Below, in pieces: positions 8,131 through 30,102 of a stretch of 64,000 nt of DNA. The notes below the pieces were generated by a model. The model saw only the letters and a program-made list of their open reading frames with translations. It did no database searches and had not been told where the DNA came from. Made by a program: the position numbers and the translations under genes. Origin of the DNA: Opitutaceae bacterium TAV5 (lineage in GTDB: Bacteria; Verrucomicrobiota; Verrucomicrobiia; Opitutales; Opitutaceae); assembly GCA_000242935.3 (NCBI GenBank), contig CP007053.1:5007001-5071000 (forward strand). The letters are read 5' to 3'. The stretch's first letter is position 1, and the number at the start of each line of letters is the position of its first letter.

Positions 8131-8256
8131 CGTTTCCTCCAGAGGCCTGGTCGTTGGCGTTCGCGGGAGAGGGATGTCCCCTTTCGTTGCATTCAATATC
8201 CTGGTGTTTTGATCAAGATACAAACAATAATATCCGTGCCCGCGAAGGAAGAACGG
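8131..8256 (-). promoter_or_regulatory. Conserved structured leader element, copy 1 (upstream of TonB receptor)
   Basis: A 126-base element that also occurs at 29,981-30,102. Reading the minus strand, it opens with CGTTCTTCC (8247-8255), which can pair with GGAGGAAACG at the far end (8131-8140; one G-U pair, one bulged A). Next to it TTCGCGGG (8239-8246) pairs perfectly with CCCGCGAA (8160-8167). It ends with hairpin CCAG-GCCT-CTGG (8139-8150). The middle carries TTGTATCTTGATCAAAAC (8206-8223), a partial dyad around TGATCA. Shared sequence plus changed hairpin loop argue for a functional RNA or operator. It matches no riboswitch consensus I know (not SAM, cobalamin, TPP or FMN). Confidence 0.6.
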
Positions 8257-13965: not shown

Positions 13966-14000
13966 GGTGAGTTAAAAATGATAATGACTTTTGGAACAAA

Positions 14001-14795
14001 TCAGTGGCTACCAAAGGTATTTAAATTGGAACTTTCATATTTTTGGACTCCTTTATGAAACAGAACTATTGATAATGCCAAAAATAGGAGTGCTATTATT
14101 GAGATTAAACCCATTTGCGACCAATCCAGATGTTTTACCGCTTCGACAGGCAGAGTGCCCACAATCAGAGATGGGATTATGAATGTAAAAATCATCCGGT
14201 TTATTCCGTGAAATGCTCCGCCCACAAACAAGGAGGGGGTTAAAAACACCTCGAACAGGCTTTGCGATAAGGCAATGGAATCCATAATCCAAAAGCTCAC
14301 CGCTTGCGTAAGCAACAAGACTGCGAAAAAAGTAACACAGGCAATGAATACTCCGGCAAAAACCATCACCATCGCTTCGAAACTTAAATGCATTGTGGCA
14401 CTGTAAATAATCAGGGAAATAAAACCATAGATTATATCTCCAACAGCCGAGATACCGAAAGATGAGGTCGCGACACGCAATAATAGGGTCTTTGGAGACA
14501 ATAAGAAACGGTCGAATCCACCGCCAACAACCGAGCTGGTGATTTTTGACAAACCATTAAAAAAGGAAAAAATAAAACCAAAAGCAAGTGTGACAAATCC
14601 AATAAGCGCAATTACATCAAGCTGCTTCCAGCCACCGATATCATTGACCGTTCTGAGGAAGAACACCCAAAGGATAAGCAATGAGCAATTGTTCAACATC
14701 ATACCGAAGGCATTGAGGAAAAAACTGGTTCGCAATTCAGCAGAATTGGTGATGTTTTTTCTTATCGCATAAAACATGAATTGCAGTTCTTTCAT
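14001..14795 (-). CDS. ABC-2 type permease, COG3694 type
   Basis: A 264-residue inner-membrane protein with about six membrane segments. The segments GGWKQLDVIALIGFVTLAFG and GGGFDRFLLSPKTLLLR match the COG3694 permease family, which partners with COG4587 permeases and COG4586 ATPases in exporters of unknown substrate. The start MKELQFMFYAIRKN follows the upstream permease by two bases. The codon use is AT-rich, like the rest of the cassette and unlike its neighbours. Confidence 0.82.
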   Translation of the reverse strand: MKELQFMFYAIRKNITNSAELRTSFFLNAFGMMLNNCSLLILWVFFLRTVNDIGGWKQLDVIALIGFVTLAFGFIFSFFNGLSKITSSVVGGGFDRFLLSPKTLLLRVATSSFGISAVGDIIYGFISLIIYSATMHLSFEAMVMVFAGVFIACVTFFAVLLLTQAVSFWIMDSIALSQSLFEVFLTPSLFVGGAFHGINRMIFTFIIPSLIVGTLPVEAVKHLDWSQMGLISIIALLFLALSIVLFHKGVQKYESSNLNTFGSH

Positions 14796-14797
14796 TT

Positions 14798-15598
14798 TCA
14801 GCCTCCGTTCACTGACAACTTTTTGTGTGCCTTTTGATTTAGCCAGAGGAGCACCGTGAATAATAGAGTTATCCATGCCCACTGGATACCAATCAATTTC
14901 AGTGCCTCGCCAGTCCATGTGTCGGATGTCATATGAGTCAGCAACAGACAGGCACCGAAGGGACTGTATATTGCCAAAATTTTCATGAGCGGCGGGAAAA
15001 AAGCGACAGGCAAAAATGAACCGCCCAGGATCATGACTGATTTGTCGGCAATCCAAAAAAGTGGTGTCGGCTCCTCTATCCAAAAGGCGATCAAACCCAA
15101 TATCGAATAAACAAGCAGTGACAATGTTATGCATCCCATCAGGACAACAGGCAGCGTCCACCAGAAAATACTGGAATACATAATGGGAGGTAGTCCAACG
15201 CTCAGTCCCATCAGGACGATGGCAGCAGGTACGACACATATTACTGGTACGAAACCTGTTGCAATTTGATACAGCATCCGATATCTGATGTAGGGAATTG
15301 GTCTGTTGATAAGCATCTCAATATTACCCGACTGTATATCCTGAATCAAAACGGGCGTAATACGCCTTAATTTCATGGAACTAAACATAAAATAAATAAA
15401 CATGCTCCATGCGATGACTTCATATTGCTGGCCCGCGATATTTCCTCCTTTGGCCTGATAAGTGTACGCATACACAAACAACAGCAAGCCGCACCTGAAT
15501 ACGAGCACAAATGCCTCGGCTAGCGAATGCCGAGCCTGAAGCAAATCTTTTTTAAAAAGAAATGCGGCAATTTTAATTTCCCGTCGCAGATCTTCCAT
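14798..15598 (-). CDS. ABC-2 type permease, COG4587 type
   Basis: A 266-residue inner-membrane protein with about six membrane segments. [18 protein letters not shown], after the second segment, is the typical cytoplasmic loop of COG4587 permeases. The start [15 protein letters not shown] is chosen over an upstream Met because it begins the expected amphipathic N-terminus; either way the gene overlaps the end of the ATPase gene, which indicates coupling. It would form a heterodimeric pore with the downstream COG3694-type permease. Confidence 0.82.
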
Positions 15599-16568
15599 AA
15601 ATCCTCCGAATGGCGACCTCAAGCTTCATTCCGTATATGTTTATGTCATTTATATCAAACTGGCCAGCAATTATCATAATGGCCTCTTTGATATCAAGCA
15701 AACTGGAATCAACCGAGACTGTTATCTGGGTTGCACCTTTAGCCATGTAAACAAGGCCCCTTGGCAAGGCAGGGAAGGTCGTAAATCTGGTTTTTGCGGA
15801 AATGTCCATGAACTTTTCCTGGGATAAAGACGCTCCCAGTCGGTTAGTGGGAGAGTCGATGAGTAGACAGCCATTGTCTATAATGATTATCCGTTCACAG
15901 AGTGATTCAATGTCCTCAACATCGTGAGATGTCAGAAATATAGTGATTCCGCTTTCCCGGTTTAGTTTCAGAAGCAAATCGCGGATATTTTTTTTTGCGA
16001 TCAAGTCCAAACCGATGGTGGGTTCGTCGAGAAAAATGATTTCTGGTTTGTGCATCAAAGATGCGGCCAGTTCGGCACGCATGCGTTGTCCGAGTGATAG
16101 CTTGCGAACAGATTGGGTCCTGAAGTTTTCAAGTTCAAGCTGTTCGGTCAATTCAATGATCCGGTTACGGATGGTCTGAGCAGAAAGACCATACATAACG
16201 CCGAATAATTCCAAAGAATCGGTCACTGGCAGGTTTGGCAGGAGTTGCGAACGCTGGCCGAAAATTGTTCCTATTCTGGCGGCAAGTCTTGCGCGATTTT
16301 TGAGGGGGCTCAATCCGAGGACGTTGATCTCACCTGATGTTGGATGCAAAATCCCGGTGAGCATTTTTATAGTAGTTGATTTGCCGGCACCGTTTGGTCC
16401 GATAAATGCGATTCGCTCTCCTTGGGAGATAGAAAAGGTCAGATTATTAACAGCCGTTATTTGTTTTCTGTCAGGGAATAGAAAATTTTTGAGCCACCCT
16501 GAATTTTCATTCCTGATGGGAAAGTCAAAACGCTTGGTTAAGTTGGCAACTGCTATGCAATTTTTCAT
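15573..16568 (-). CDS. ABC exporter ATPase, COG4586 type
   Basis: A 331-residue nucleotide-binding subunit. Walker A is GPNGAGKST (about residues 58-66), the signature is LSLGQ, Walker B is IIFLDEP followed by TIGLD, and the H-loop is TSHD. The N-terminal lead-in with a basic LFPDRKQI segment before the ATPase core, and the phrase [15 protein letters not shown] after strand Q, are COG4586 hallmarks. It overlaps the propeller gene upstream and the permease gene downstream, so the exporter is one transcription unit. Substrate unknown; the neighbouring propeller and papain-like proteins are the only hints. Confidence 0.88.
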
Positions 16569-18268
16569 GCATCCCCTTCTTTTGATATTTTGAATTCAGG
16601 GAGATCTCTTGTGCGTTTGGCCTCACTCAGAAGTAAACGTCGGGCGACACTCCGCCATGTGTCAAATGCCTGGTAGCCACTTTTTTTGAGGACATTATTC
16701 GCCATATCGCGAATCTCAGACTGCTCCAATTCTTCTCCATATATTCTTCGTAATGCTTGAATGCAAGATGCTCCACTATAATTGAGGTTTTCTTGTGGCG
16801 TCATCTCAATATTATTCAAGATGATTTCATCCATGATTTCTCGTCTTGATGTGAATTCCAATTCAAGCATGATAATTTGCCGTTTATCATCCTTATAACA
16901 TATAGTTAAGGGAAGTGCATACACACCACACCGCCTGCCAAGACTGGGATCAGACAGGAAACGATATTCATTCTTGTCTGAATCGCTTAGATATGGGGGC
17001 ATTGATGCGGAATCTCCAATTTGTGATAAATCCAGAGATATTGATTTTATTTTTGTTGGTTCAGCATTTTGGACAAAAACGATTAATTCTACAGGCTCAT
17101 CAGCTTTGGGTTCCTGCTTAATGTGACCAATGATTTTCGCCGAAGCAATCGGACAATCTACCGATATCATCTCAAACGAGAGTAAAAAGCCAAAATAAGG
17201 AGGATCTCCTGCTCCTACGAATAAATTGCCTTCCGAAATACTACAGGCACTATAGGGAGATTGTCCGATTGGCATTTTTGATTTTATTACTCCATCCTTT
17301 GCATGCAACATCCAGAGAAATCCACCAGCGCTTACAAAAAGGGCATCAGCAAAGACGCTTACTGGCATCCAGACTCCAGCATCACTTAGAAAAGTAGTCC
17401 ACAATTGTGCCCCTGTTTTTTTGTCGAAGCACTGAACAAACCCCTCAACTGTTGTAAGAAAAATACTTTCGTACGAGACTATACATAGCGATCGCATTCC
17501 TATCCCGCAAGAATGTGTTGACCACAAAACCGTTCCTGCAGAATCGATGGCCCATACTCGTTCCGAAGAGGCAATATATGCAATATCATTCGAAATTTGG
17601 ACGCCAGAAGTATCAGAGCTTGTCAGATTACCCGGTCCCAAATCCACCTTCCAGTTTATATTTTCCTTAAATGAATACAGATAAATTCTAGCCTCCTTAT
17701 TTCCCTCACCCTGCTGAGTGCCTAATGTCAGAAAGTCGCCGTTCGCATTTTTCGCACATAAACCAAAGAAAAATGTCCGTGGTGACATTATCTGGAAAAC
17801 CAATCCCCCATTTTCCCCTATGGCATATATGTTTCCTGCATTTGAAACAATCGCCAAATTGTCTATGATATTGATGGGGCTTCTTATGCGACCATTTGTT
17901 TTGAATTTCCAGAGTGATTGTCCCGTTTTTTTATCCAATGCCTCCAAGTCGGTAAACCCGGACAATAAAAGAAGCTCATTCCCTCTTAAAGCAGGTGCAC
18001 CATAGCCACCGTTTATGAGATTACTTTTCCATAGAATTCTACCATTCTCTTTTTGGAATGCGACTACCTCGTATGATCTACGTTTTTCAACATAGACGAC
18101 AACGTAGCCTGAGTAGGAATCACTTGGGTCGAATATAGGAACTCTAACGAGTCCATCCAAACGAACCAACCACTTGAGATTCGGTCTTTTTTCTGTGCCG
18201 ATCTTAAAATCGGCACATTGTAGATGATCGACGAAACTGGTGTTATGTAGCCTCCGAATAGTTCTCAT
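16565..18268 (-). CDS. PQQ-like beta-propeller protein with C-terminal Ig-like and helical region
   Basis: A 567-residue protein. Repeated blade motifs of the PQQ/BamB type are visible: [43 protein letters not shown] and [15 protein letters not shown]. After about residue 370 a beta-rich, Ig-like stretch follows and then a helical C-terminus ([19 protein letters not shown] onward). No signal peptide is obvious, so it may act in the cytosol or on the membrane. The start [11 protein letters not shown] at 18,268 is my choice; the frame opens 12 codons earlier. It overlaps the papain-like gene (18,243-19,010) and the exporter ATPase gene, so it is part of the same unit. Function unknown. Confidence 0.7.
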
Positions 18269-19010
18269 TGTAGATAGTAATTTCCCTCTTTTGTTGCAAA
18301 TCAATTATTAAGGGGCAACGTACCCTAAGTGTGTTTTTATCTTCAAAAGCATATGGTCTTTTGCTTCCTATAATCGCCTCAAGGGAAACTTCTATCTCTG
18401 AGAGAGAATGGTCCCATTTGGAAATAGGAAACTCAATGTTTGCCGTCTGCCCGACATGCCATTCGCCTTCCACGGAGATCACATTGTTTCCGCGAATTGA
18501 GAACTTATTGTTTCCCTCAATCTTTGCTGTAATTGACGTTATGACTTGATTGTCTTGATCCATCACGATGCCATCGGGCTTGTAAAATCCGACTCGAACA
18601 TTTATGGAAACCTTTTGATCAAAGGTTTTCTGTAGTTTGCTTGTGATATGCAAGGCACTTGGTATGATCAGAAAGTCAAGAGTGCAATCAACTATTTCAA
18701 TAAGAAGTTGACTAGCTTTTATCCACCAGATTCCTGATCTGTTTCCACCCCATTCACGCCTCCATGGATCTTGTAATGCAAACATTTTAGTTTTGTTATC
18801 ATAACCGACTATCAGAACGGCCTGTCCTTCTAGATCATTTTTCCGCATCACTTCATCTGATGATGGATAAGCCGCAGCGCTGTGTAATCGGATCATTACT
18901 GGCTTGCCGTCGGCAAGAGAACGAATAATCGTTTCGGATGCCCGTTTGAAATAGGGGTCATAGCATGCAACTGATGCAAGTCCTTTCGATGATATTATTA
19001 TTGTATTCAT
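18243..19010 (-). CDS. Half papain-like fold with Ig-like C-terminus, catalytic residues missing
   Basis: A 255-residue protein. Residues about 25-110 match the second half of papain-like (C1/C39-type) peptidases: ASETIIRSLADGKPVMIRL, EGQAVLIVGYDNKTK and LQDPWRREWGGNRSGIWWI. The catalytic His of the GHAVLIVGY motif is Gln here, and the Cys-bearing first half is absent, with no matching sequence upstream. Residues about 120-240 are beta-rich and Ig-like. A non-catalytic binding protein or a decayed enzyme are the two readings. It is the first gene of the AT-rich cassette, behind a 16-base palindrome. Confidence 0.6.
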   Translation of the reverse strand: MNTIIISSKGLASVACYDPYFKRASETIIRSLADGKPVMIRLHSAAAYPSSDEVMRKNDLEGQAVLIVGYDNKTKMFALQDPWRREWGGNRSGIWWIKASQLLIEIVDCTLDFLIIPSALHITSKLQKTFDQKVSINVRVGFYKPDGIVMDQDNQVITSITAKIEGNNKFSIRGNNVISVEGEWHVGQTANIEFPISKWDHSLSEIEVSLEAIIGSKRPYAFEDKNTLRVRCPLIIDLQQKREITIYNENYSEAT

Positions 19011-19088: not shown

Positions 19089-20402
19089 TCAGAACGATTC
19101 GGAGAGCTGTTCGAGGAAGGCCTTGATTTTCATTGTCTGCTCCTCGGTGACGGGTTCGTTGTGGACGGTGCATTCGAGGCCGACGATGGGGAAGCCCTGC
19201 TTGCGGAAATAATTGCGCTCGAGCTGCTGCACCAGGCTGGCGTAGGGGCAGGCGGTGATGGCGGAGGAAATGAGTCCCCTCGCGCCGGTCTTCGCGATCA
19301 GTTCCTCGATGCGGCGGCGGCGCAGCAGGGCAGAGGCGCCGGTGGCCTCGCCGAGTTCGCCGCGGAGCTGCGCCTCGAACAGATAGTGCGCGAGCGATTC
19401 GAGTGGCGGCACGTCCTCGCGATAAAGCGAGGTGCCGAGAATGACCAGCCCGACAAGGACGGCGTTGGCGTTCTCGAGCAGCTCGAAAAAGCTCAGGCCG
19501 CCGGGAGGCCCGCCGGCGAGCACGAGCGGCAGGCAGGGGCGTGTGTCGGGCGTCTTCGCCGCTTCCTCCAGATCGAGGAGGATCTGGTCGAGGATGGCAT
19601 TGAATTTTTCCCGGTTCCCGAAGTAGCTGCTCGTCCCCATGATGAGCCACATCATCGGCAGGCTGCCGATATCGAAAGGGCGCTTCAGGCGCAGGTCCAT
19701 GATGCGGGCCACTTTTTTGATGGCTTCGTTCTTGAGGCGGATTTCCTCGGCGAGACGGTCCTCATCCACAGGTTTGCCCTGGAGCCAGACGGTGGCCTTG
19801 CGGAGCTCGTTGGCGAAAAATTTGACGAGTTCGTCGCGGCGCTCCCCGAGCTTGAAAGCGGTCGCCCCCTCCACGGTATGGATTTCATAGCCATCCCTGC
19901 GCGCGTGCTCCTCGACCATGCTGGCCGGCTCGCAGGTGGAACCGAAGGCAAGGATGCGCCGGATCCGGTCGTTTTTCCTGAGATGCCAGCGGCCGGCCAT
20001 CGACTTGATCATGGAACAGAACTCGGAGGGAATCTGGAAATGATTCTCGGCGACCCGCTCGGCGTGTTTGCTGTCGCGCCGCCATAGTTCCATGATGGAT
20101 ACGCCGATGGTGTCGGTGGCGCGGAAGAGCGGCGAATCCCAGAACATGCCGCCCCAGACGGCGCGCCGGCCCTGGTCGACGAGTGTTTCGATGTGTTCGA
20201 GGCTCCACGTGTTCGCAAGCACGCCGAGCTCCTTGACGGCCTGCGAGCTGGAATCCTTGGCCCTGGCATCGTAGAGGCCGGGCTGGATGCGGCTGCCGTG
20301 GCGGACGGTGCCGGGGAGGTAGTCGGGCGCGTCCACGCGGATGCGGTTTCCGGTGAGGACGGACGCGGTGTCGGGGCTTTCGAACGTGGTGGTGTTGCTC
20401 AT
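19089..20402 (-). CDS. 2-hydroxyacyl-CoA dehydratase/benzoyl-CoA reductase family protein, paralogue 1
   Basis: A 437-residue protein of the HgdB/BcrC superfamily, whose members carry an oxygen-sensitive Fe-S cluster and receive an ATP-energised electron from a HgdC-type activator. Candidate cluster cysteines are Cys129 (SEFCSM), Cys157 (GSTCEP) and the Cys of SSAITACPYAS near residue 395; the usual N-terminal Cys motif is absent (WGGMFWDSPLFRA instead). It is strikingly similar along its length to the next gene (20,491-21,807), so the two are a tandem duplication, perhaps giving a heterodimer. Last gene of the operon led by the importer genes. Confidence 0.82.
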   Translation of the reverse strand: MSNTTTFESPDTASVLTGNRIRVDAPDYLPGTVRHGSRIQPGLYDARAKDSSSQAVKELGVLANTWSLEHIETLVDQGRRAVWGGMFWDSPLFRATDTIGVSIMELWRRDSKHAERVAENHFQIPSEFCSMIKSMAGRWHLRKNDRIRRILAFGSTCEPASMVEEHARRDGYEIHTVEGATAFKLGERRDELVKFFANELRKATVWLQGKPVDEDRLAEEIRLKNEAIKKVARIMDLRLKRPFDIGSLPMMWLIMGTSSYFGNREKFNAILDQILLDLEEAAKTPDTRPCLPLVLAGGPPGGLSFFELLENANAVLVGLVILGTSLYREDVPPLESLAHYLFEAQLRGELGEATGASALLRRRRIEELIAKTGARGLISSAITACPYASLVQQLERNYFRKQGFPIVGLECTVHNEPVTEEQTMKIKAFLEQLSESF

Positions 20403-20490
20403 GGTCGGCGGGCGGTCGGATGGTTGAGTGATCGAGGAGGGGGATCGGTCCGGTCGGGCTGACCCGGACCGATCCCTTGCGGGAGCCTGT

Positions 20491-21807
20491 TCAGCAGGCT
20501 TCGGCGAGTTGTTCGAGGAAGGCGCGCACCTTCATCGTCTGCTCCTCGGTGGCGGGTTCGGTGTGCACGGTGTGTTCGAGGCCGACGATGGGGAAGCCCT
20601 GCTTGCGGAAATAATTCCGCTCGAGCTGCTGCACCACGCTGGCGTAGGGGCAGGCGGTGATGGCGGAGGAGATGAGGCCTCTCGCGCCGGTGTGTTTGAC
20701 GATTTCCTCGACCCGGCGGCGGCGCAGCGTGGCCGACGCGCCGGCGCCTTCGCCGAGTTCGCCGCGCAGTTGCGCGTCGAACAGGTAATGCGCGAGCGAC
20801 TCCAGAGGCGGCACGTCCTCGCGGTAGGTCGAGGTGCCCTGGATGACGAGACCGACGATGACGGCGTTGGATTTTTCGAGCAGTTCGAAAAAGCTCACGC
20901 CGCCAGGCGCGCCGCCGGCGAGCACGAGCGGCAGATAGGGGCGCGTCTCGGGCGTCTTCGCCGCCTCCTCCAGCTCGATGATGAGCCGGTCGAGGATTTC
21001 GTTGAATTTCACCGGATTGCCGAACAGGTGGTTCGCGCCCATGTTGATCCGCAGCGTGGGGATGCTGCCGAGGTCGTAGGGGCGCTTGAGGCGCAGGTCC
21101 ATGATCCGTCTGACCTTCCGGAGCACCTGGTTCTTGAGCCGGATCTCCCCGGCGAGACGGTCTTCGTCCACAGGTTTGCCCTGGAGCCAGACGGCGGTTT
21201 TGCGCAGTTCGTTGACGAAGAACCTGACCATCTCCTCGCGGCGTTCGCCGACCTTGAAGGCGGTGGCGGCTTCGTAGCAGTGCAGTTCGTAGCCGTCGTG
21301 ACGGCTGTGCTCGAGCACCATGTTGATCGGTTCGCAGGTGGAGCCGAAATACAGGATGCGCCTGATCTTGTCGTATTTCTTGAGGTGGAGACGGCCGATC
21401 ATCGCCTTGATCATGGAGCAGAATTCGGCGGGCACCTGGAAATGATTTTCGGCGACATGCTCGGCGTGTTTGCTGTCGTGCCGCCATAGTTCCATGAAGG
21501 GCACGCCAATGGTGTCGGTCGCGCGGAGCAGCGGCGAATCCCAGGAACCGCCGCCCCAGACGGCGCGGCGACCCTGGTCCACGAGTTCCTCGAAGTGTTT
21601 GAGGTTCCATTTCTTCGTGAGTTCGTCGAGATCGCGGATGGCCTGCGACCGGTGATCCGCCAGGCTGATGTCGTCGAGGTGCGGCTGCACGCGGCTGCCG
21701 TGGCGCTTGACGGCGGGCGCGGCGTCAGGATCAACGGCGGATTGTAGCGGGAATTCAGCGACAGGATATCCGGCGGATCCGGGTTCAAGCGTCAACGGTT
21801 TGCTCAT
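20491..21807 (-). CDS. 2-hydroxyacyl-CoA dehydratase/benzoyl-CoA reductase family protein, paralogue 2
   Basis: A 438-residue paralogue of the gene at 19,089-20,402; blocks such as WLQGKPVDEDRLA and GARGLISSAITACPYAS are identical. Candidate cluster ligands are Cys130, Cys158 and the ACPY cysteine. The start MSKPLTLEPGSAGYP at 21,807 overlaps the end of the third family member by 23 bases; the frame upstream of it is serine/proline shadow. Its own stop is 88 bases from the next start. It probably forms a complex with one of its neighbours; the substrate is unknown. Confidence 0.82.
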   Translation of the reverse strand: MSKPLTLEPGSAGYPVAEFPLQSAVDPDAAPAVKRHGSRVQPHLDDISLADHRSQAIRDLDELTKKWNLKHFEELVDQGRRAVWGGGSWDSPLLRATDTIGVPFMELWRHDSKHAEHVAENHFQVPAEFCSMIKAMIGRLHLKKYDKIRRILYFGSTCEPINMVLEHSRHDGYELHCYEAATAFKVGERREEMVRFFVNELRKTAVWLQGKPVDEDRLAGEIRLKNQVLRKVRRIMDLRLKRPYDLGSIPTLRINMGANHLFGNPVKFNEILDRLIIELEEAAKTPETRPYLPLVLAGGAPGGVSFFELLEKSNAVIVGLVIQGTSTYREDVPPLESLAHYLFDAQLRGELGEGAGASATLRRRRVEEIVKHTGARGLISSAITACPYASVVQQLERNYFRKQGFPIVGLEHTVHTEPATEEQTMKVRAFLEQLAEAC

Positions 21808-23002
21808 GGGTGGCGGTGGTGAGTTGTTTTTCGCGGATGACATCGACGAAGGCTTCGATGCGGGTGAGGAGCTGGCCGCGGTCGCTTTCGGAATAATCGC
21901 TGGAGAGCGCGAGCACGGGGAGGCCGAGTTCATGGAAGCGGGCGATAAAGTCCTTCTGGCTCACGCCGTAGCAGGCGCAGAACTTGAGGAAGACGTAGAG
22001 GACGCCGTCCACGTTGTACTCCTGGGCAAGTTTGGCGGAAAACTCGATGGCGTCGGAAAGCGGGCGCTGGCGGGCGCAGGGCGACTGGTCGAGGTAACCG
22101 TCGGCGAGCGCCTGGTAAGGGTCGCCGGTCTCGGGCACGGTGTGGTAGAAGGGCCGCGCGCCGGCGCAGTGGTCCTCGATGACGACGCGGGCGCCGAGCT
22201 CGTTTTCCACGATGTCGAGGATGCGGCGGTCGCCATCGGCCATGATGCTGCCCGCAACCATGAGGCGGATCTGGCGCTGGCCGGACGGCGGCTGGGCGGG
22301 GGTGAGCGCCTCGTAGTAGCGGTAGAGCTGCTCCAGAACGGGGAGGAGCTTGCGTGGCTCGACGTAGTAGTAGCCGCGCACGATGTCGAGAAAGGCGCGG
22401 CCGGTGAGCGCGGGATTGGCGCGTTTGCGCAGCTCGGAGAACTTGCGCAGGAGCCGGCGTAGTTGGTTGTAAACGACAATCCCGGCGCGCACGTCCTCGT
22501 CGGCGATCGGCTTGCCGGTGAGCTCGGCAAGATCGTCGCGAAACTCGATGATCTCGGAACGGAAGAACCGTCGCGAGTCTTCGGAGTTGCGCAGTTTGGG
22601 GAGATTGAGCAGGCGCGTGGGTGTGAAAAGCTCGATCACTTCCGACGCGCGTTTCATGGTGGCGCAGGTGTGGAAGTTGTAAACCTTGTCGAACGCCTTG
22701 TAGAACGGGTCGCCCTGTTCGAAGCCGCCGATGCAGCTTTTGGTGAAATCGCAAAACACGCTTTGCGTGAACAGTTCGCCGGCGGCGGCCTGTTCGGAAT
22801 TGCCACCCTTGAAGAGGCGGGCGTGGCGGACGCCGGCGGCGCTGAGCAACTCGAGCGGTGTGTAGTTGCACAGGTAGCCGGCTTTTTTGACGCCGACGGC
22901 GTCGATGAGGGACTGTTGCTCGGTCTGGACGAAGGCGCTGAATTGTGCCGGGTCGGTGATGCGCGGAGCGGTGGCGGGGCCGGTGGTGGATGTGATGCTC
23001 AT
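21785..23002 (-). CDS. 2-hydroxyacyl-CoA dehydratase subunit-like protein
   Basis: A 405-residue, more canonical HgdB-family protein. The motif AGYLCNYTPLELLSAAGV (Cys45) is the standard N-terminal signature; FCDFTKSC (Cys84, Cys90) and HTCATMKRA (Cys113) supply further ligands, and the C-terminal half contains the second Rossmann-like domain. Dehydratases in this family use one [4Fe-4S] per subunit, while double-cubane relatives bind more iron; the abundance of cysteines here leaves both possible. It is the first of three family members after the activator gene, same strand. Confidence 0.85.
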   Translation of the reverse strand: MSITSTTGPATAPRITDPAQFSAFVQTEQQSLIDAVGVKKAGYLCNYTPLELLSAAGVRHARLFKGGNSEQAAAGELFTQSVFCDFTKSCIGGFEQGDPFYKAFDKVYNFHTCATMKRASEVIELFTPTRLLNLPKLRNSEDSRRFFRSEIIEFRDDLAELTGKPIADEDVRAGIVVYNQLRRLLRKFSELRKRANPALTGRAFLDIVRGYYYVEPRKLLPVLEQLYRYYEALTPAQPPSGQRQIRLMVAGSIMADGDRRILDIVENELGARVVIEDHCAGARPFYHTVPETGDPYQALADGYLDQSPCARQRPLSDAIEFSAKLAQEYNVDGVLYVFLKFCACYGVSQKDFIARFHELGLPVLALSSDYSESDRGQLLTRIEAFVDVIREKQLTTATHEQTVDA

Positions 23003-23026
23003 GGTGAAGGAGGTTCTGGTTGGTGT

Positions 23027-24000
23027 TCAGCAGGCGAGGCTGCGGTCGAATTCGACTTCGACGGCGTCGTTGACGGCGGCGGGGCTGTCGGCTTTCGACC
23101 ACACGAAGGGGCGAGCCTGGTATTTGGCGGCGACTTCCGGCGAGGCCGCCGCGTGCTTGCCCGCATAGACGGCAGCTCCCAGCGAGCCGGCAAAGATGAG
23201 GTCGAGCTTCGGCACCTGGAACTTCGACTTGAGCAGGGTTTCCAGGACCTGCCACATGCCGGGGTTGTTGGAGACGCCGCCGGTGAAGGCGAGGCCGGGT
23301 TCGATGCCGACGCGGCCGAGCAGATTGTGCACGCGGCGGGCGGCGGAGAGGTGCACGCCGGCGGCGATGTTGGCGCGGGCTTCGAGGTCGTTGTTGCGCT
23401 CGCCGCGGGCGCGCAGCGAGATCATCTCGGACTCGGCGAAGACCACGCACTGGCTGCTGACGGGCGCGGGGTCCTTCGACTCGAGGGCGACGGGGCCAAG
23501 CTCATCGAGCTCGATGCCGAGCAGGGCGGCGGCCTTTTCCAGAAAACGGCCGGTGCCGGCGGCGCATTTGTCGTTCATGACAAACTCGACGACCTTGCCG
23601 GTGGCGGGGTCGATCTTGATGGCCTTGGAATCCTGACCGCCGATGTCGATGATGGTGCGCGTCTCCGGGAGCGCGGCGTGCGCGCCCATGGCGTGGCAAC
23701 TGATCTCGGTGACGACCTTGTAGGGGATGTCGTCATACTTGAGCGAGATGCGCCCATAGCCGGTGCCCACGATGAAGGCGATGTCGGAGCGTTGCAGCCC
23801 GGATTCGGCGAGGAGGCGGCCGAGCAGGTCGTCGGCGGTCTCCTGCATGTAGAGGCCGGTCGGGATGAGGGCGGTGTAAACCTCGTCCTCGACGAGGAGG
23901 ACGCCCTTGGAGCCGCGCGAGCCGATGTCGAGCCCGATGACCGGCCACTCGGGGCCGTAGGTCCAGTCGCCGGAAGCGATGATATCCTTCGCTTTGTGTT

Positions 24001-24004
<4 letters not shown>
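23027..24004 (-). CDS. ATP-dependent [4Fe-4S] activator, BadF/BadG/HgdC family
   Basis: A 325-residue ASKHA-fold ATPase that drives a single electron to very low potential for a 2-hydroxyacyl-CoA dehydratase/reductase partner. The phosphate loops are GLDIGSRGSKG (residues 24-34) and DIGGQDSKAI (120-129). Cluster ligands are Cys147 (NDKCAAGTGRF) and Cys186 (SSQCVVFAESE); each subunit of the homodimer gives two. The length is somewhat above the HgdC minimum, with a short C-terminal tail. Its start overlaps the stop of the LolD-like ATPase (ATGA, 24,001-24,004), which couples a redox activator to an ABC transporter gene. Confidence 0.92.
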
Positions 24005-24789
<785 letters not shown>

Positions 24790-24793
24790 GGTG

Positions 24794-25999
24794 TCAGTCG
24801 ATGTCTCCTTGCGCCATGGCGTGCGCGGGTTCGAGTTGGGCCACGCGGAGCGCGGGCGCGATGGCGGCGGCCGCGCCGACGAGGGCATAGAGCAGGAGGG
24901 CGCCGAGCGCGCCGAAGACGAACAGCGGCGTCTCCACGGGCACGAAGGGGAACACGTTGTCGGCGGTGAGACGGCTGAAGGCGAAGCGGTACAGCCAGAG
25001 GCCGGCGGGGATGCCGGGCAGGACGCCGGCCACGGCGAGGAGCATGGCCTCGCCGACGACGAGTTGCACGATGCGTGCGCGGGCGGCGCCGAGAGCGCGG
25101 TAGAGCGCCCATTCGCCCTTGCGATCCCAGGCGGCGGCGGCGAAGTGACCAAACAGATACGCGATGCCGCCGAGCGCGGTGAGGCCGCCGGCGCCGGCCA
25201 GCACGAGAACGAATGCATCCATCAGGCGCTTGGTGCGCAGAAAGGTTTCTCCGGCGCGGATGACGTTGAACGGGCCGATGTCCTCGATGGCGCGGGCGAC
25301 GGTTTCCACGGCGGCGGGGTCGGCGACCTCGACGAGCAGCGCGGAGACGAGCCGGGCGGGCGGACCGGCTTCGAGCCAGACGGGACGGAGCGCCTCGGAC
25401 TGCGTGGCGAGGGCGCGGGCCGCGTCGATGGGCATGAGAATGGAGTGGTCGAGGCTGGCCCCGGTGGAATCGAGCCGCCAGCCGATGCGGAAGATTTTCC
25501 CCAGAATCTCGATGAGCGAACCGGGACGGCCGACACCGGCGAGCAGTTGGGAACCAATGACAACTTCGTCGGCTTCGAGCGTGGAGCGTCCGGCGGAGGA
25601 GAGCCGGGCGAGACGGCGGAGGGTGCCGTCCTCGACGCCGACGAGACGTATTTCGTTTACACCCGAGCAGCATTCGAGCCGGAGCGTTTGCGTGAAAAAC
25701 TGCGACTCCACGCGTCCGACCCCGGGCACGCGGCGGACGTCGGCGACGAGGGCGCGGTCCATGTAGACGTTGAGAGGCGAGCCGGCGAAGAGCGCCTTGT
25801 CGGGATCGACGGTGGCGTTGGCGGGCACGATGAGCAGATCGGCCCCGAGCTGGCGGCGGCCGCGTTCGATGCCTTGTTCGAGTCCACGATAGAGCAGGAA
25901 CACTCCGAGCAGCAGCGCAACGCCCAGGGCCACGCCCAGAACGGCGGCGAGCGATTGCCAGCGGCGGCGGAGGATGCTGTGGAGGATCAGGCGGAGCAT
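24794..25999 (-). CDS. FtsX-like (MacB-type) ABC permease with periplasmic CC motif
   Basis: A 401-residue inner-membrane protein with four segments in the MacB/FtsX layout: one N-terminal (about residues 17-37), a large periplasmic domain, then three near the C-terminus (from AFVLVLAGAGGLTALGG). The periplasmic domain contains LRLECCSGVNEIRLVGVE with vicinal cysteines 110-111, unusual for this fold and a possible metal, thiol or disulfide site. It pairs with the LolD-like ATPase. Its place between an importer and a low-potential redox system is unusual. Confidence 0.85.
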   Translation of the reverse strand: MLRLILHSILRRRWQSLAAVLGVALGVALLLGVFLLYRGLEQGIERGRRQLGADLLIVPANATVDPDKALFAGSPLNVYMDRALVADVRRVPGVGRVESQFFTQTLRLECCSGVNEIRLVGVEDGTLRRLARLSSAGRSTLEADEVVIGSQLLAGVGRPGSLIEILGKIFRIGWRLDSTGASLDHSILMPIDAARALATQSEALRPVWLEAGPPARLVSALLVEVADPAAVETVARAIEDIGPFNVIRAGETFLRTKRLMDAFVLVLAGAGGLTALGGIAYLFGHFAAAAWDRKGEWALYRALGAARARIVQLVVGEAMLLAVAGVLPGIPAGLWLYRFAFSRLTADNVFPFVPVETPLFVFGALGALLLYALVGAAAAIAPALRVAQLEPAHAMAQGDID

Positions 26000-26079
26000 G
26001 CGATTTTAATCAAGAATCAAGAATTAAAAATTAGGAAATGGATAGACTGAGTAGTCGTTTTTTGGATTCAAACGGCGCG

Positions 26080-26874
26080 TCAGATTTCGTAGCTGAACTG
26101 GGTTTTCGTCTGCAGCTCGAACTCGGCGAGGAGTTCTTTCTTGAGGTTCTGGAAGACCGGGTTTTCCCGGTCGCGCGGGCGCGCGAGATGGACGGGGACG
26201 ATTTTCTTGATGCGACCGGGCCGGGCCGACATGAGCACCACGGTGTCGCTCAGGTACAGGGCCTCCTCCACGTCGTGCGTGACCATGACCATGGTGATTT
26301 TTTCCTCGATCCAGATTTTCTCCAGTTCACGCTGCATGTAGATGCGGGTGAGGGCGTCGAGCGCGCCGAGCGGTTCGTCGAGGAGGAGAATGCGGGGCTT
26401 GTTGACAAGGGCGCGCGCGATGGCGGCGCGCTGCGCCATGCCGCCGGAAAGCTGCGCCGGCCAGGCGCGCTCGAAACCGTGCAGGCCGACGAGGCGCAGG
26501 TATTTCCGGATACGCTCCTGTTGCTCGGCTTTCGGCAGGTCTAGCAGGCCGAAGCCGATGTTTTCCTCGACCGTAAGCCAGGGGAGCAGGCGGTGGTCCT
26601 GGAAGACCACGCCCTTGTCCGGCCCGGGGCCGCCGATGCGCAGGCCGTCGAGCGTGACATTCCCGCCGAACTCGGTCTCGAGTCCGGCCAGGATGCGCAG
26701 GAACGTGGTCTTGCCGCAGCCGCTGGTGCCGACGATGGAGACGAACTCCCCGGGCCGGATGCTGAGGTTGACGTTGTCGAGCGCCGTGACCCGCGCCGTG
26801 CCGTGGCGGGCGGCGAAGATCTTGGTGAGGTCGCGGGCCTCGACGTCGACAGTGCGGTTTGCAGTCATGACCAT
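26080..26874 (-). CDS. Nitrate/sulfonate/taurine-type ABC importer ATPase
   Basis: A 264-residue ATPase of the SsuB/TauB/NrtD group. Walker A is GTSGCGKTT, the Q-loop GVVFQDHRLLPWLTV, signature LSGGMAQRAAIARAL, Walker B ILLLDEPLGALD and H-loop VTHDVEEAL, all standard for this group. It serves the permease at 27,410-28,333 and the binding protein at 28,330-29,619. The start may be Met1 (26,874) or Met3 (26,868); no clear ribosome-binding site decides. The flavoprotein gene lies between it and the permease. Confidence 0.9.
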   Translation of the reverse strand: MVMTANRTVDVEARDLTKIFAARHGTARVTALDNVNLSIRPGEFVSIVGTSGCGKTTFLRILAGLETEFGGNVTLDGLRIGGPGPDKGVVFQDHRLLPWLTVEENIGFGLLDLPKAEQQERIRKYLRLVGLHGFERAWPAQLSGGMAQRAAIARALVNKPRILLLDEPLGALDALTRIYMQRELEKIWIEEKITMVMVTHDVEEALYLSDTVVLMSARPGRIKKIVPVHLARPRDRENPVFQNLKKELLAEFELQTKTQFSYEI

Positions 26875-26891
26875 TTGAATACGTGTCGGGC

Positions 26892-27362
26892 TCAGAGCGC
26901 GATCTCCTGGAGGGCAGCCGGGCCGCGTCCCCTCGAATAGTCGGAAAAGCGGACCTCGGCGGCCTGGACGCGGAAGAGGGCGGTGCCGTCGAGCTCGCCC
27001 TTGTCCGCGCGGGCCTTGAAGTGCGGGCTGCGGGCGGAGAGGACGGTGACGGCCTGCGGATACTCGGGGGATTGCGGGACGACCTCGACGGCGTCGCCGA
27101 TCAGGGAGACGCCTTTGTAGGAAGCGATGTCCAGTTCCTCATGCTGGAAGTAAAAGTTGACGCGGGCGTTTTTCCGGATGCTGCGGACCTTGGCGGAATC
27201 GCGCGGCGTGGAAAAATAGACGTCGACCTGCCCGGGGGCGACCGGCGCGAAGCTGCCGATCGGACGGATCGTCGGGGCGTTGTCCTCGCGCACGATGGCG
27301 AGAAAGGCCCAGCGGGTCAGGGCGATGTAATCGTGAACGTTCTGTTTTTGTTCGATGCTCAT
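26892..27362 (-). CDS. Pyridoxamine 5'-phosphate oxidase-like flavin-binding protein
   Basis: A 156-residue split-barrel protein of the PPOX family. Segments WAFLAIVREDNAPTIRPIGSF, VDVYFSTPRDSAKVRSIRKN and ARVNFYFQHEE form the usual FMN-binding barrel of small pyridoxamine-phosphate-oxidase-like proteins, many of which are flavin or F420/heme binders of unknown substrate. Being embedded between two importer genes suggests that it processes the imported compound or supplies electrons. The start MSIEQKQNVHDYIAL is preferred because the upstream frame is shadow. Confidence 0.82.
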   Translation of the reverse strand: MSIEQKQNVHDYIALTRWAFLAIVREDNAPTIRPIGSFAPVAPGQVDVYFSTPRDSAKVRSIRKNARVNFYFQHEELDIASYKGVSLIGDAVEVVPQSPEYPQAVTVLSARSPHFKARADKGELDGTALFRVQAAEVRFSDYSRGRGPAALQEIAL

Positions 27363-27409
27363 GGTCGGGAAGAGAGTGGTGGGTGTGTGTGGCGCGTCGG
27401 GGGGGGGAG

Positions 27410-28333
27410 TTATCCCTCGAATCCGCGTTTCCAGCGCAAGAGGCGGGCCTCGATGCGACGCAGGACGACGTCGATGGTGAAACCGACGACGCCGATAAGG
27501 ACGATCAGCACGAAGAGCTGGTCGCTGTGCAGCAGTTCCTGGGCGCGCATGATGAGGAAACCCAGCCCGCGCCGCGCCCCGAGCATTTCGGCGACGATGA
27601 GGACGGCCCACGAGATGCCCGCGCCGAAACGCAGTCCGACAAAGATAGCCGGCAGGGCGGCCGGCAACACGATGCGGCGCAGGAGGCGCAGGCGTCCGTA
27701 AGCGAAGATGCGGCCGACTTCGATGTATTCGCGAGGGGTGCCGCGGATGCCTTGCAGGGTATTCAGGAACACGGGGAAAAACACGGCCTTGGCGATGAGG
27801 ACGTTTTTCCCGAGGTCACCCGCGCCCATCCACAGAATGATGAGCGGGAGCCACGCAAGGGTGGGCACCTGGCGGATGCCGTTGAGCAGCGGGCCGAGGA
27901 GGTCTTCCACGGTGCGCGAGAGTCCCGTGGCCATGCCGGTCGCGAGGCCGATAATGGCGCCGACGGAAAACCCCTTGAGGACAGTGATGGCGCTGATCCG
28001 GAAATCTCCGAGGAGATTGTCCTTCAGCAGGAGCTTGAGGAAGGCTTCGCCGACGCTGGCGGGCGTGGGCAGGAAGATGCGCTCGACAAGGCCGAATCGC
28101 GTGAGGAGATCCCAGACGATCAGGAGCGCGAGAGGCAAAAGGCTCTGGATGGCGAGGCGACGGATGCGGGGAAGATTCCGGCGAAAACGTTCGACGAACG
28201 GCGTGCGGCTGGTGGCTGCCGAGACGGTGTCGGGTACGGGAAAGGTGGTGGTCCTGTCGCGGGATGCCGTGGGCAACGCGGGGGAAACTGCCACGGGAGA
28301 CGAGGGTGCGGTGGCTTCGGTGGCGGTGCTCAT
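27410..28333 (-). CDS. Nitrate/sulfonate/taurine-type ABC importer permease
   Basis: A 307-residue inner-membrane protein of the SsuC/TauC group. After a 55-residue Ser/Thr/Pro-rich cytosolic N-terminus come about six membrane segments; the ATPase-contact EAA loop is EYIEVGRIFAYGRLRLLRRIVLPAALP, followed by FVGLRFGAGISWAVLIVAE, a typical family stretch. Its ATG overlaps the stop of the binding-protein gene (28,330-28,333). Confidence 0.9.
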   Translation of the reverse strand: MSTATEATAPSSPVAVSPALPTASRDRTTTFPVPDTVSAATSRTPFVERFRRNLPRIRRLAIQSLLPLALLIVWDLLTRFGLVERIFLPTPASVGEAFLKLLLKDNLLGDFRISAITVLKGFSVGAIIGLATGMATGLSRTVEDLLGPLLNGIRQVPTLAWLPLIILWMGAGDLGKNVLIAKAVFFPVFLNTLQGIRGTPREYIEVGRIFAYGRLRLLRRIVLPAALPAIFVGLRFGAGISWAVLIVAEMLGARRGLGFLIMRAQELLHSDQLFVLIVLIGVVGFTIDVVLRRIEARLLRWKRGFEG

Positions 28334-29619
28334 AGCGCAGGGGCGGATCGGGTGTTGCCGGAAGTGGAGACGACGGCGCTCGCTGCCGGAGCCGACGGTG
28401 TGACGCCGTCAGTGCCTGCCACCGCCGACGCGGACGGCGGCTGCCGCGGCTTTCCGCTGGTATCCACAAAATACTCACCGCCTTTGAAGAACCGGCGGTC
28501 GACGAACTCGGAGATCTGCGCTTCGGTGAGAGGCTTGGCGCCGTAGAAATCGTCGCCGTTGGCGATTGCCCATTTGAGGAAGCGCGAAAGCGCGTCGATG
28601 GTCTCCTGCGCATCGGGACGCCCCGGGTCGAGCACGAGGGAGGACTCGTCCTTGATCATGTAGAGCGAAACGGATTTGGGCGTGCGGTAAACCCTGGCCG
28701 CGGCCTCGGCGGTTTCCTCGTAATGGTTGCCATCGACAATCCAGCGGCGCGTGCGGTCGTAGAGGCGCAGGTAGGCTTGGACGACGTCGGGATTCCGGTT
28801 GGCGAAGCGGCGCAGGGTGATGATGAGGGCGCGGCCGCCGCCGGTGACGTACTGGCCGTCAGGTCTGGCGGTGGCGATTTCGCGTACGCGGCCCTCCTCG
28901 TAGAGCCGGCCGATTTCGGGGGTGGCGGCGTGAACGGAAAGGGCTTCGATTTCCCCGGTGAGAAGTGCGAGGATGCTGGGATTGCCCGTGATGTTGACGT
29001 AGTGCACCTCGCCCTTTTTCAGCTCGGTGTCGAGCTGGATGCCCTCGGCGAGGAGCGCCTCGTAGGTGGCGAAGTAGGGGCAGCCGAGCCGGTGCGCCCC
29101 GAGCACTTTCCCCTTGAGGTCGGCGAGCGTGCGCACGGGAGAATCCTTGCGGACGATCGTGGTGGCGCGGCGCGGGTGGCAGTCGCCGCTCGCCCAGACG
29201 ACAACGAAGTCAAAGCCGTTGGCCTTGTGCTGGAGGGAGGGATAGGCCATGCGTTCGGCGATGTGGAGGTCGCCGCGCTGGAAGAGGGCGGCCTCGGCGC
29301 TGCCGGCCACACGGCGGTCGACGATTTCGACCTCGACGTTGAGCGGGTCGAAGGCCTCGCGAAGCCAGCCTTTTTCGTTGGCGATGGTGACCCAGCTGTT
29401 GAGGCCGATTTTGACGACACGCTTTTTCGAGGGAATGGCCGGGGGAAGCGCGGTGGATCTGGTGATGGCGCCGGCGGTGGCCGGGGCAGCGTCTGCTGCG
29501 GCCGCGGGATGCGTACCGGCGGGTTTCGCAGTATCCGATGAAAATGCGCGGAAGAGGAAGACTGCGGCGAGGATGCCCGCCAAGGGCAGGCCCGCTTTGT
29601 ATACAAGGGAACGGTTCAT
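28330..29619 (-). CDS. NMT1/SsuA-type solute-binding protein, membrane-anchored
   Basis: A 429-residue periplasmic-side binding protein of the nitrate/sulfonate/taurine type and first structural gene of the ten-gene operon. An N-terminal hydrophobic stretch (about residues 8-27) probably stays as an anchor, followed by an Ala/Pro/Thr linker. The binding domain begins at VVKIGLNSWVTIANEKGWL and includes DFVVVWASGDCHPRRATTIV and LADLKGKVLGAHRLGCPYF. The C-terminal 35 residues are Ser/Ala-rich and low in complexity. Substrate class (sulfonate, nitrate, pyrimidine precursor or aromatic acid) cannot be read off. The start MNRSLVYKAG begins the anchor. Confidence 0.88.
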   Translation of the reverse strand: MNRSLVYKAGLPLAGILAAVFLFRAFSSDTAKPAGTHPAAAADAAPATAGAITRSTALPPAIPSKKRVVKIGLNSWVTIANEKGWLREAFDPLNVEVEIVDRRVAGSAEAALFQRGDLHIAERMAYPSLQHKANGFDFVVVWASGDCHPRRATTIVRKDSPVRTLADLKGKVLGAHRLGCPYFATYEALLAEGIQLDTELKKGEVHYVNITGNPSILALLTGEIEALSVHAATPEIGRLYEEGRVREIATARPDGQYVTGGGRALIITLRRFANRNPDVVQAYLRLYDRTRRWIVDGNHYEETAEAAARVYRTPKSVSLYMIKDESSLVLDPGRPDAQETIDALSRFLKWAIANGDDFYGAKPLTEAQISEFVDRRFFKGGEYFVDTSGKPRQPPSASAVAGTDGVTPSAPAASAVVSTSGNTRSAPAL

Positions 29620-29980: not shown

Positions 29981-30102
29981 CGTTCCTCCAGATGCCTGGT
30001 CGTGCGCTGGGCGCAGGAGCTGGTGCCCTTCTGCAAAGAAGATCAATTCAGTGTGTTTACCAGGATACAAATAATTATTTTTACCGCTGCAAAGGAAGAA
30101 CG
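29981..30102 (-). promoter_or_regulatory. Conserved structured leader element, copy 2 (upstream of importer/redox operon)
   Basis: Homologue of 8,131-8,256. On the minus strand CGTTCTTCC (30,094-30,102) pairs with GGAGGAACG (29,981-29,989) over nine positions with one G-U; the terminal hairpin is CCAG-GCAT-CTGG (29,988-29,999); an extra hairpin CTTCT-TTGC-AGAAG lies within. The central TGTATCCTGGTAAACA (30,055-30,070) is a weak dyad around the shared GATACAA core. The loop of the terminal hairpin differs from copy 1 while the arms are kept. An RNA switch hiding the ribosome-binding-site-like GGAGG, or a protein-bound promoter region, are the two readings. Confidence 0.6.

Follow-up and report, generated by a model that had tools for sequence, protein, structure and literature searches.

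In the genome of the termite-gut bacterium Opitutaceae bacterium TAV5, a stretch of 64,000 nucleotides (hereafter the window, to which coordinates refer unless a locus number, L, is given) contains a run of ten minus-strand genes between positions 19,089 and 29,619, in which the parts of an importer, a second pair of ABC transporter proteins and an ATP-dependent redox system follow one another. Their order, strand, families and overlaps had been given in a preliminary description of the same DNA and are borne out by the coordinates and the family profile matches:

28330-29619, minus strand: P0001, SsuA/NMT1-type substrate-binding protein (PF09084, 39.6 bits)
27410-28333, minus strand: P0002, SsuC/TauC-type permease (PF00528, 83.9 bits; SsuC and SaoP models under cut-off)
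26892-27362, minus strand: P0003, PPOX-type flavin-binding split-barrel protein (PF01243, 40.0 bits)
26080-26874, minus strand: P0004, SsuB/TauB-type importer ATPase (PF00005, 114 bits; nitrate-, taurine- and sulfonate-class models all under their own cut-offs)
24794-25999, minus strand: P0005, MacB/FtsX-type permease (PF12704 and PF02687)
24001-24789, minus strand: P0006, LolD/MacB-type ATPase (PF00005, 110 bits)
23027-24004, minus strand: P0007, HgdC-type ATP-dependent activator (PF01869, 178.8 bits; TIGR00241, 220 bits, cut-off 125.4)
21785-23002, minus strand: P0008, double-cubane-type HGD-D subunit (PF06050 over cut-off; six cysteines)
20491-21807, minus strand: P0009, single-cubane-type HGD-D subunit (PF06050, 100.9 bits; Cys130/158/386)
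19089-20402, minus strand: P0010, duplicate single-cubane-type HGD-D subunit (PF06050, 94.7 bits)

The genes are tightly packed. ATGA overlaps, in which the start codon lies on the preceding stop, are found at 28330-28333 and 24001-24004; a further overlap, at 21785-21807, involves the first and second HGD-D genes, the latter starting 23 bp within the former; and the remaining intergenic gaps measure 4 to 88 bp. A second species of the genus has the full set in the same order (L015/L016), and the series running from the substrate-binding protein through permease, PPOX protein, SsuB, FtsX, LolD, HgdC and the double-cubane subunit to HgdB recurs, with some differences, in Spartobacteria UBA695 (L009) and in a Verrucomicrobiales metagenome-assembled genome (MAG; L044). 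Because colinearity extends over the same genus and two other orders of the phylum, this arrangement is the product of selection, not of chance, and the packing together with the colinear sets supports the predicted single operon that had been proposed before. The PPOX protein is kept in the operons of L016, L017, L009 and L044 as well as in that of TAV5 (five operons).

The activator and the HGD-D subunits

P0007 falls among the ASKHA-fold activators with two bridging-cluster cysteines: it carries both cluster motifs, NDKCAAGTGRF and SSQCVVFAESE, and matches solved activator structures with E values from 5e-58 to 2e-34. P0008, P0009 and P0010, the only HGD-D proteins encoded in the TAV5 genome, each have at least three conserved cluster cysteines, as judged from PF06050 and cysteine alignments. 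Together with the TIGR00241 score, these patterns support the ATP-driven HgdC/HgdB-type redox system of the preliminary description and place it in the BCR-I/HAD/DCCP superfamily of HgdC-activated Fe-S enzymes. Its three HgdB/BcrC-family proteins keep their family assignment but cannot be treated as one uniform kind, since one is of the six-cysteine, double-cubane type (P0008), whereas the other two are duplicates of the three-cysteine, single-cubane type (P0009 and P0010).

P0008 aligns over its length to the double-cubane protein DCCP (PDB 6eno/7yyl, E ~1e-37) and to BzdN (E 1.7e-32), and its cysteines 45, 84, 113, 279, 309 and 342 match all six ligand positions of both proteins, a pattern that is kept in relatives with the exception of Rhizobium. 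In L009, L017 (genome G029), L044 and L098 (genome G499), as well as in Azoarcus KH32C (L047), the activator and the double-cubane subunit are fused in one open frame, which is strong evidence that the two work together. DCCP and its reductase (YjiM/YjiL) offer the closest solved structure for P0008, with the same activator family and the same number of cysteines; DCCP, however, is a homodimer that lacks a single-cubane partner and has no known in vivo substrate, and none of the three HGD-D proteins reaches the 350 bits required by the DCCP equivalog model NF040772 (P0008 222.6, P0009 45.1 and P0010 43.9 bits).

P0009 and P0010 are 73% identical, their genes sharing a 300-nt direct repeat at 85%. 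Cys130, Cys158 and Cys386 of P0009 are invariant across nine aligned sequences, and the three cysteines of both proteins are the counterparts of BzdO Cys95, Cys128 and Cys380, which bind the catalytic [4Fe-4S]-OH2 cluster; moreover, the position of the active-site Trp46 of BzdO is an invariant tryptophan in the close relatives. The family profile of P0009 matches DCCP, BzdO and HadBC, and, as a weak check, the Foldseek list of its weak AlphaFold2 model (predicted local distance difference test, pLDDT, 48) is topped by the BCR-I/HAD/DCCP superfamily alone. In BzdN and BzdO, an [8Fe-9S] store is combined with a [4Fe-4S]-OH2 active site (PMC11971306), and by its cysteine pattern the operon is predicted to have this class I benzoyl-CoA (coenzyme A) reductase layout, in which a double-cubane electron store serves a single-cubane active site.

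The likeness to the benzoyl-CoA reductase BzdNOPQ (PDB 8s02) thus comprises the ATP-dependent activator, the pairing of six-cysteine [8Fe-9S]-type and three-cysteine [4Fe-4S]-OH2-type subunits and the Trp46 position. In contrast to that system, the TAV5 operon has a single activator, a sulfur-type importer and a desulfinase context, no nearby CoA genes and no equivalents of Glu65 and His131. The 2-hydroxyisocaproyl-CoA dehydratase HadBC (PDB 3o3m) likewise shares the activator family, the three-cysteine single-cubane subunit and the lack of a His131 equivalent, but HadC has lost the double cubane, and HadBC serves amino acid fermentation, with CoA esters as its substrates. All equivalog models of either group remain far under cut-off for the operon proteins, for instance BzdN (117.9 against 453.8 bits), BzdQ (179.9 against 380.2) and BcrA (147.4 against 578) among the class I benzoyl-CoA reductase models. 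As an observation of its own, nifH- and nifD-like genes lie near two HgdB-like genes in a Puniceicoccales MAG (L008 5826-8492); a link to nitrogen considered on that account was dropped, as the arrangement was seen at no other locus.

Desulfinase-like genes beside related reductases

The sister operons of L009 and L044 each contain two extra genes, placed between the PPOX and SsuB genes, whose products resemble binding proteins and lack a signal sequence. In structure searches these products match best the 2'-hydroxybiphenyl-2-sulfinate desulfinase DszB (PDB 2de2, E 1.4e-17). Although the overall sequence is distant from DszB, Cys27, His60, Arg70 and the RxGG motif with both its glycines, whose roles in DszB have been described (PMC6100217), are identical in 24 of 24 aligned copies (18 Verrucomicrobial, three rhizobial and three from G499). 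The partner genes of the sister operons are thus DszB-like and are predicted to encode DszB-type sulfinate desulfinases; an AlphaFold2 model of a DszB-like protein, built from two sequences with a mean pLDDT of 34, was left unused.

In TAV5 itself, seven DszB-like genes stand in tandem at chromosome positions 6,287,497-6,295,476 (L039/L040), in one operon with an SsuABC importer, and genome G029 has an array of six, also with an SsuABC importer, on contig 9 at 44.7-51.4 kb (L042); the number of copies in both arrays is unusually high. Luciferase-type monooxygenase genes lie near both arrays, and a DszC-like gene is also present at that of TAV5. In genome G499 (L098), the fused activator and double-cubane gene and HgdB come before genes for two luciferase-type monooxygenases and one DszC-like protein, and the same contig carries three or more DszB-like genes no further than about 25 kb away; upstream of its reductase (L098 14929-19900) there are URO-D family genes resembling corrinoid methyltransferases, similar in kind to those of described methyl-sulfur clusters (PMC10418091). 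In genome G559 (L099), a cysteine-synthase-type (PALP) gene lies about 2 kb upstream of the reductase. Two HgdC/double-cubane units in tandem come after it, and the first of these includes a more distant (34-35%) HgdB-like gene. Radical SAM proteins of the variant/MSMEG_0568-like group are encoded directly before the G029 reductase genes (L017 6554-7837) and at the head of the UBA695 operon (L043 13616-14881), and TAV5 lacks one.

DszB-like genes are otherwise scarce, being found in two of 388 sampled genomes of the phylum, one of which is TAV5, and in two of 57 relatives, both with the reductase (Fisher p 0.002). Five of eight tested reductase genomes have them, against one of 387 others, although the corresponding Fisher p of 4e-9 comes from a set of genomes of which some were included for having the operon, and it serves as a rank, not as a probability.

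Outside Verrucomicrobiota, where plasmid records were searched, a Rhizobium leguminosarum plasmid (L052 11457-16885) encodes in a row a BzdO-like protein (best structure BzdO, E 8e-23), a second HGD-D subunit with three of the six double-cubane cysteines only, a DszB-like protein with the Cys27/His60/Arg70 triad intact and two activators, so that the DszB-like gene lies between reductase and activator genes. Further along follow a symporter, rhodaneses and a sulfate permease (sulP), and a CoA ligase is absent from the cluster. From its gene content, L052 is a predicted independent instance of the reductase-desulfinase partnership, in a different phylum and with a different transporter. As a whole it resembles a four-component benzoyl-CoA reductase system with the DszB-like gene in mid-cluster.

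The leader motif and the transporters

A short sequence element precedes the operon, and related sites occur elsewhere:

29985-30002, minus strand: leader motif CGACCAGGCATCTGGAGG; the substrate-binding protein gene starts about 365 bp downstream
8,136-8,153, minus strand: site of the same pattern, before a TonB receptor gene
Further motif sites in other loci: L017 6361; L041 7678-7695; L064; L078-L086

The pattern CGACCAGGCNNCTGGAGG has exactly four sites in the TAV5 genome, against 0.03 expected, and these precede the operon, the SsuABC/DszB array, the TonB receptor gene and an ExbB gene. A looser form, CGACCAG-N4-CTGGAGG, gives 18 sites in the 57 relatives against three for a reversed control; the sites that were read lie mostly ahead of sulfur-type loci and, with few exceptions, point the same way as the gene. 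Among these loci are ones with a solute-binding protein that looks to be of the sulfate type, Rrf2-YezD-porin loci, a MetY-like pyridoxal phosphate enzyme of Cys/Met metabolism whose gene comes after one for cysteine synthase, and, in G029, both the DszB array and the operon of radical SAM, fused HgdC::DCCP and HgdB genes. Relaxed copies are present upstream in L010, L043 and L044, and in Opitutaceae a second copy, CCGG-N4-6-CCGGAGGC, often stands about 45 nt upstream of the leader motif. The CCAG/CTGG stem pairs in 22 of 22 variants, with two double changes among them, which fits an RNA hairpin; alternatively, the motif could be a putative operator of a neighbouring Rrf2 regulator. Rfam gave no match in the operon region or the sister loci, nor on the motif loci even when the threshold was made permissive, and scans for sigma-70 promoters and terminators scored little above shuffled sequences. 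Whatever its nature, the motif, judged by the genes that it precedes, ties the operon to sulfur genes.

The importer has the SsuABC/TauABC architecture of binding protein, permease and ATPase, but all three TAV5 proteins stay under the curated cut-offs, and the operon adds the FtsX/LolD pair and the PPOX protein. P0001 reaches 82.8 bits with the SsuA-family model TIGR01728 (cut-off 163.5), which places it at superfamily level only. It is 42-83% identical to the binding proteins of other HgdB operons, 39-40% to those of the DszB arrays and 22-29% to other SsuA-like proteins, identities that place it in one predicted clade with the binding proteins of HgdB operons and DszB arrays. The FtsX/LolD pair had previously been called a mechanotransporter; its sequence is indeed of the MacB/FtsX type, whereas the prefix 'mechano-' goes beyond what the sequence allows. 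P0006 does not qualify as the ATPase of the LolCDE lipoprotein releaser, having 183.1 bits with the LolD equivalog model against 307.75 needed, and P0005 is 61-63% identical to its counterparts in L044 and L009. For FtsX, the plasmid records yielded only distant modules, in Treponema and, unannotated, in Acetoanaerobium. A sulfur role for the pair is favoured, since the Treponema saccharophilum module (binding protein, permease, DUF4418, FtsX, LolD and SsuB) encloses a cysteine synthase gene, and DUF4418 adjoins FtsX in L009 and L044 also.

Apart from these genes, G+C content drops to about 43%, against about 64%, in an A/T-rich island at 14000-19000 of the window. The island encodes an exporter of the ABC-2 type with its ATPase, together with repeat and peptidase-like proteins, and looks recently acquired.

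A probable reductive route to organic sulfur

Taken together, the operon is reasonably likely to encode an O2-independent, ATP-driven reductase that scavenges sulfur from an imported organosulfur compound, probably in a CoA-independent manner. The preliminary description had guessed at a sulfur compound, and that guess has gained in strength because DszB-like genes are found in sister operons and in the Rhizobium cluster and because the operon shares its leader motif with sulfur genes. Such extraction would follow a reductive route that is not known to have been described. To our knowledge, the enzymes that act on the sulfonate or sulfone step either require O2 (SsuD, TauD, DszA and DszC) or are of the glycyl-radical type and serve a few C2/C3 sulfonates. 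The methylthio-alkane reductase MarBHDK, likened here by description and not by sequence, is also an ATP-driven Fe-S reductase that salvages sulfur without O2, but it belongs to the nitrogenase family.

In the proposed pathway, the SsuABC-type importer (P0001, P0002 and P0004) would take in a small organosulfur compound of the sulfonate, sulfone or sulfinate class. P0007 would then use ATP to inject low-potential electrons into P0008, which, like BzdN towards BzdO, would hand them on to the three-cysteine [4Fe-4S]-OH2 site in P0009 or P0010, within P0008/P0009 and P0008/P0010 heterodimers; the PPOX protein P0003 may, as a guess, bind flavin in the electron supply. One-electron steps at very low potential would break an S-O or C-S bond to give sulfinate, sulfite or sulfide. 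In the sister operons, a DszB-type desulfinase would free sulfite from sulfinate, a task that in TAV5 could fall to the seven desulfinases encoded elsewhere on the chromosome, and the sulfite would enter cysteine synthesis. Subunit pairing, electron path, substrate, product and CoA independence are all inferred. Sulfinate would be the most economical product, since sister operons carry sulfinate desulfinases and sulfones are known to be cleaved to sulfinates by single-electron chemistry. The most specific version, in which an imported sulfonate or sulfone is reduced to a sulfinate that DszB-type cleavage converts to sulfite, is put forward tentatively and may well prove wrong. It would make this system the first CoA-independent member of the Birch-type reductase family and an O2-independent equivalent of the Ssu and 4S routes of desulfurisation, under joint control with the sulfate regulon by way of a new leader motif of the hairpin type.

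Several observations weigh against the sulfur-scavenging reading. The TAV5 operon itself has no DszB-like gene, and no DszB-like genes of the close kind were found in the same-genus genome G001, the MAG G425 or G427. Desulfinases of the phylum are also seen with monooxygenases (L039/L040 and L059), so that their substrate need not come from the reductase. Glu65 and His131, which form the acid/base pair in BzdO, are not kept (the His131 position holds Ile or Ala, and there is no conserved acid at that of Glu65), and the proton or hydrogen-atom chemistry of BzdO is therefore not simply transferable. Finally, no sulfur gene adjoins a related Azoarcus reductase, whose neighbours are AraC, ferredoxin and fatty-acid genes.

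The association of desulfinases with monooxygenases in G499 and TAV5, which points to a separate oxidative route, also speaks for an unlikely alternative, namely that the reductase cuts a thioether or another C-S bond directly to give a thiol or sulfide, while the DszB-like enzymes serve other imported compounds of the same regulon. The cysteine-synthase-type gene near the G559 reductase would consume such sulfide, and MarBHDK shows that sulfur salvage by an ATP-driven Fe-S enzyme has a precedent; on the other hand, the importer belongs to the sulfonate class, and desulfinase genes are part of the operon in two orders (two genes) and of the Rhizobium cluster (one gene). It would be rather surprising if importer and reductase were chemically unlinked and merely co-regulated by sulfur starvation, the reductase serving, for example, Fe-S or enzyme reactivation. 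The leader motif alone could account for their co-occurrence, and in G029 the genes for HgdC::DCCP, HgdB and the PPOX protein have no adjoining importer genes. However, importer and reductase keep the same order in three orders of the phylum, and the Rhizobium cluster pairs reductase with desulfinase despite its different transporter.

Quite improbable, too, is a classical CoA-ester dehydratase or aryl-CoA reductase that acts on an imported free acid activated by enzymes encoded elsewhere. All characterised heterodimers of the family with a single-cubane active site act on CoA esters (PMC11971306), and distant homologues in Sphingopyxis and Rhodococcus lie between AMP-binding ligases and CoA transferases. 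The close homologues (L009, L016, L017, L044, L098 and L099), by contrast, have sulfur genes as neighbours and no adjoining CoA ligase or transferase, in keeping with the earlier remark that the operon lacks CoA-activation genes; the check that the preliminary description had set for itself, a look for such genes next to close homologues, is thereby passed. The benzoyl-CoA reductase and dehydratase models fail as stated above. A selenium or organometallic system, of the kind suggested for certain double-cubane proteins and the SAO (selenocysteine-assisted organometallic) operon, is very improbable: SaoP and SaoA are the top models for permease and ATPase, and double-cubane proteins have provisionally been tied to selenium in the literature, but the scores (184.3 of 295 and 255.8 of 360 bits, respectively) are under cut-off and no selD exceeds its cut-off in the TAV5 genome. 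On these grounds SAO membership and a selenium role were dropped.

Among the proteins that carry the double-cubane [8Fe-9S] cluster, a cofactor resembling those of nitrogenase, benzoyl-CoA reductase alone has a defined job, and the restriction to CoA esters is regarded as the limit of enzymatic Birch-type reduction in a 2025 structure paper (PMC11971306). If a sulfur-scavenging reductase is indeed encoded here, the double-cubane family would gain a second physiological role, sulfur scavenging without CoA, and sulfur could be released from sulfonates or sulfones without O2. The use of organic sulfur by facultative and anaerobic gut and sediment bacteria would then become testable.

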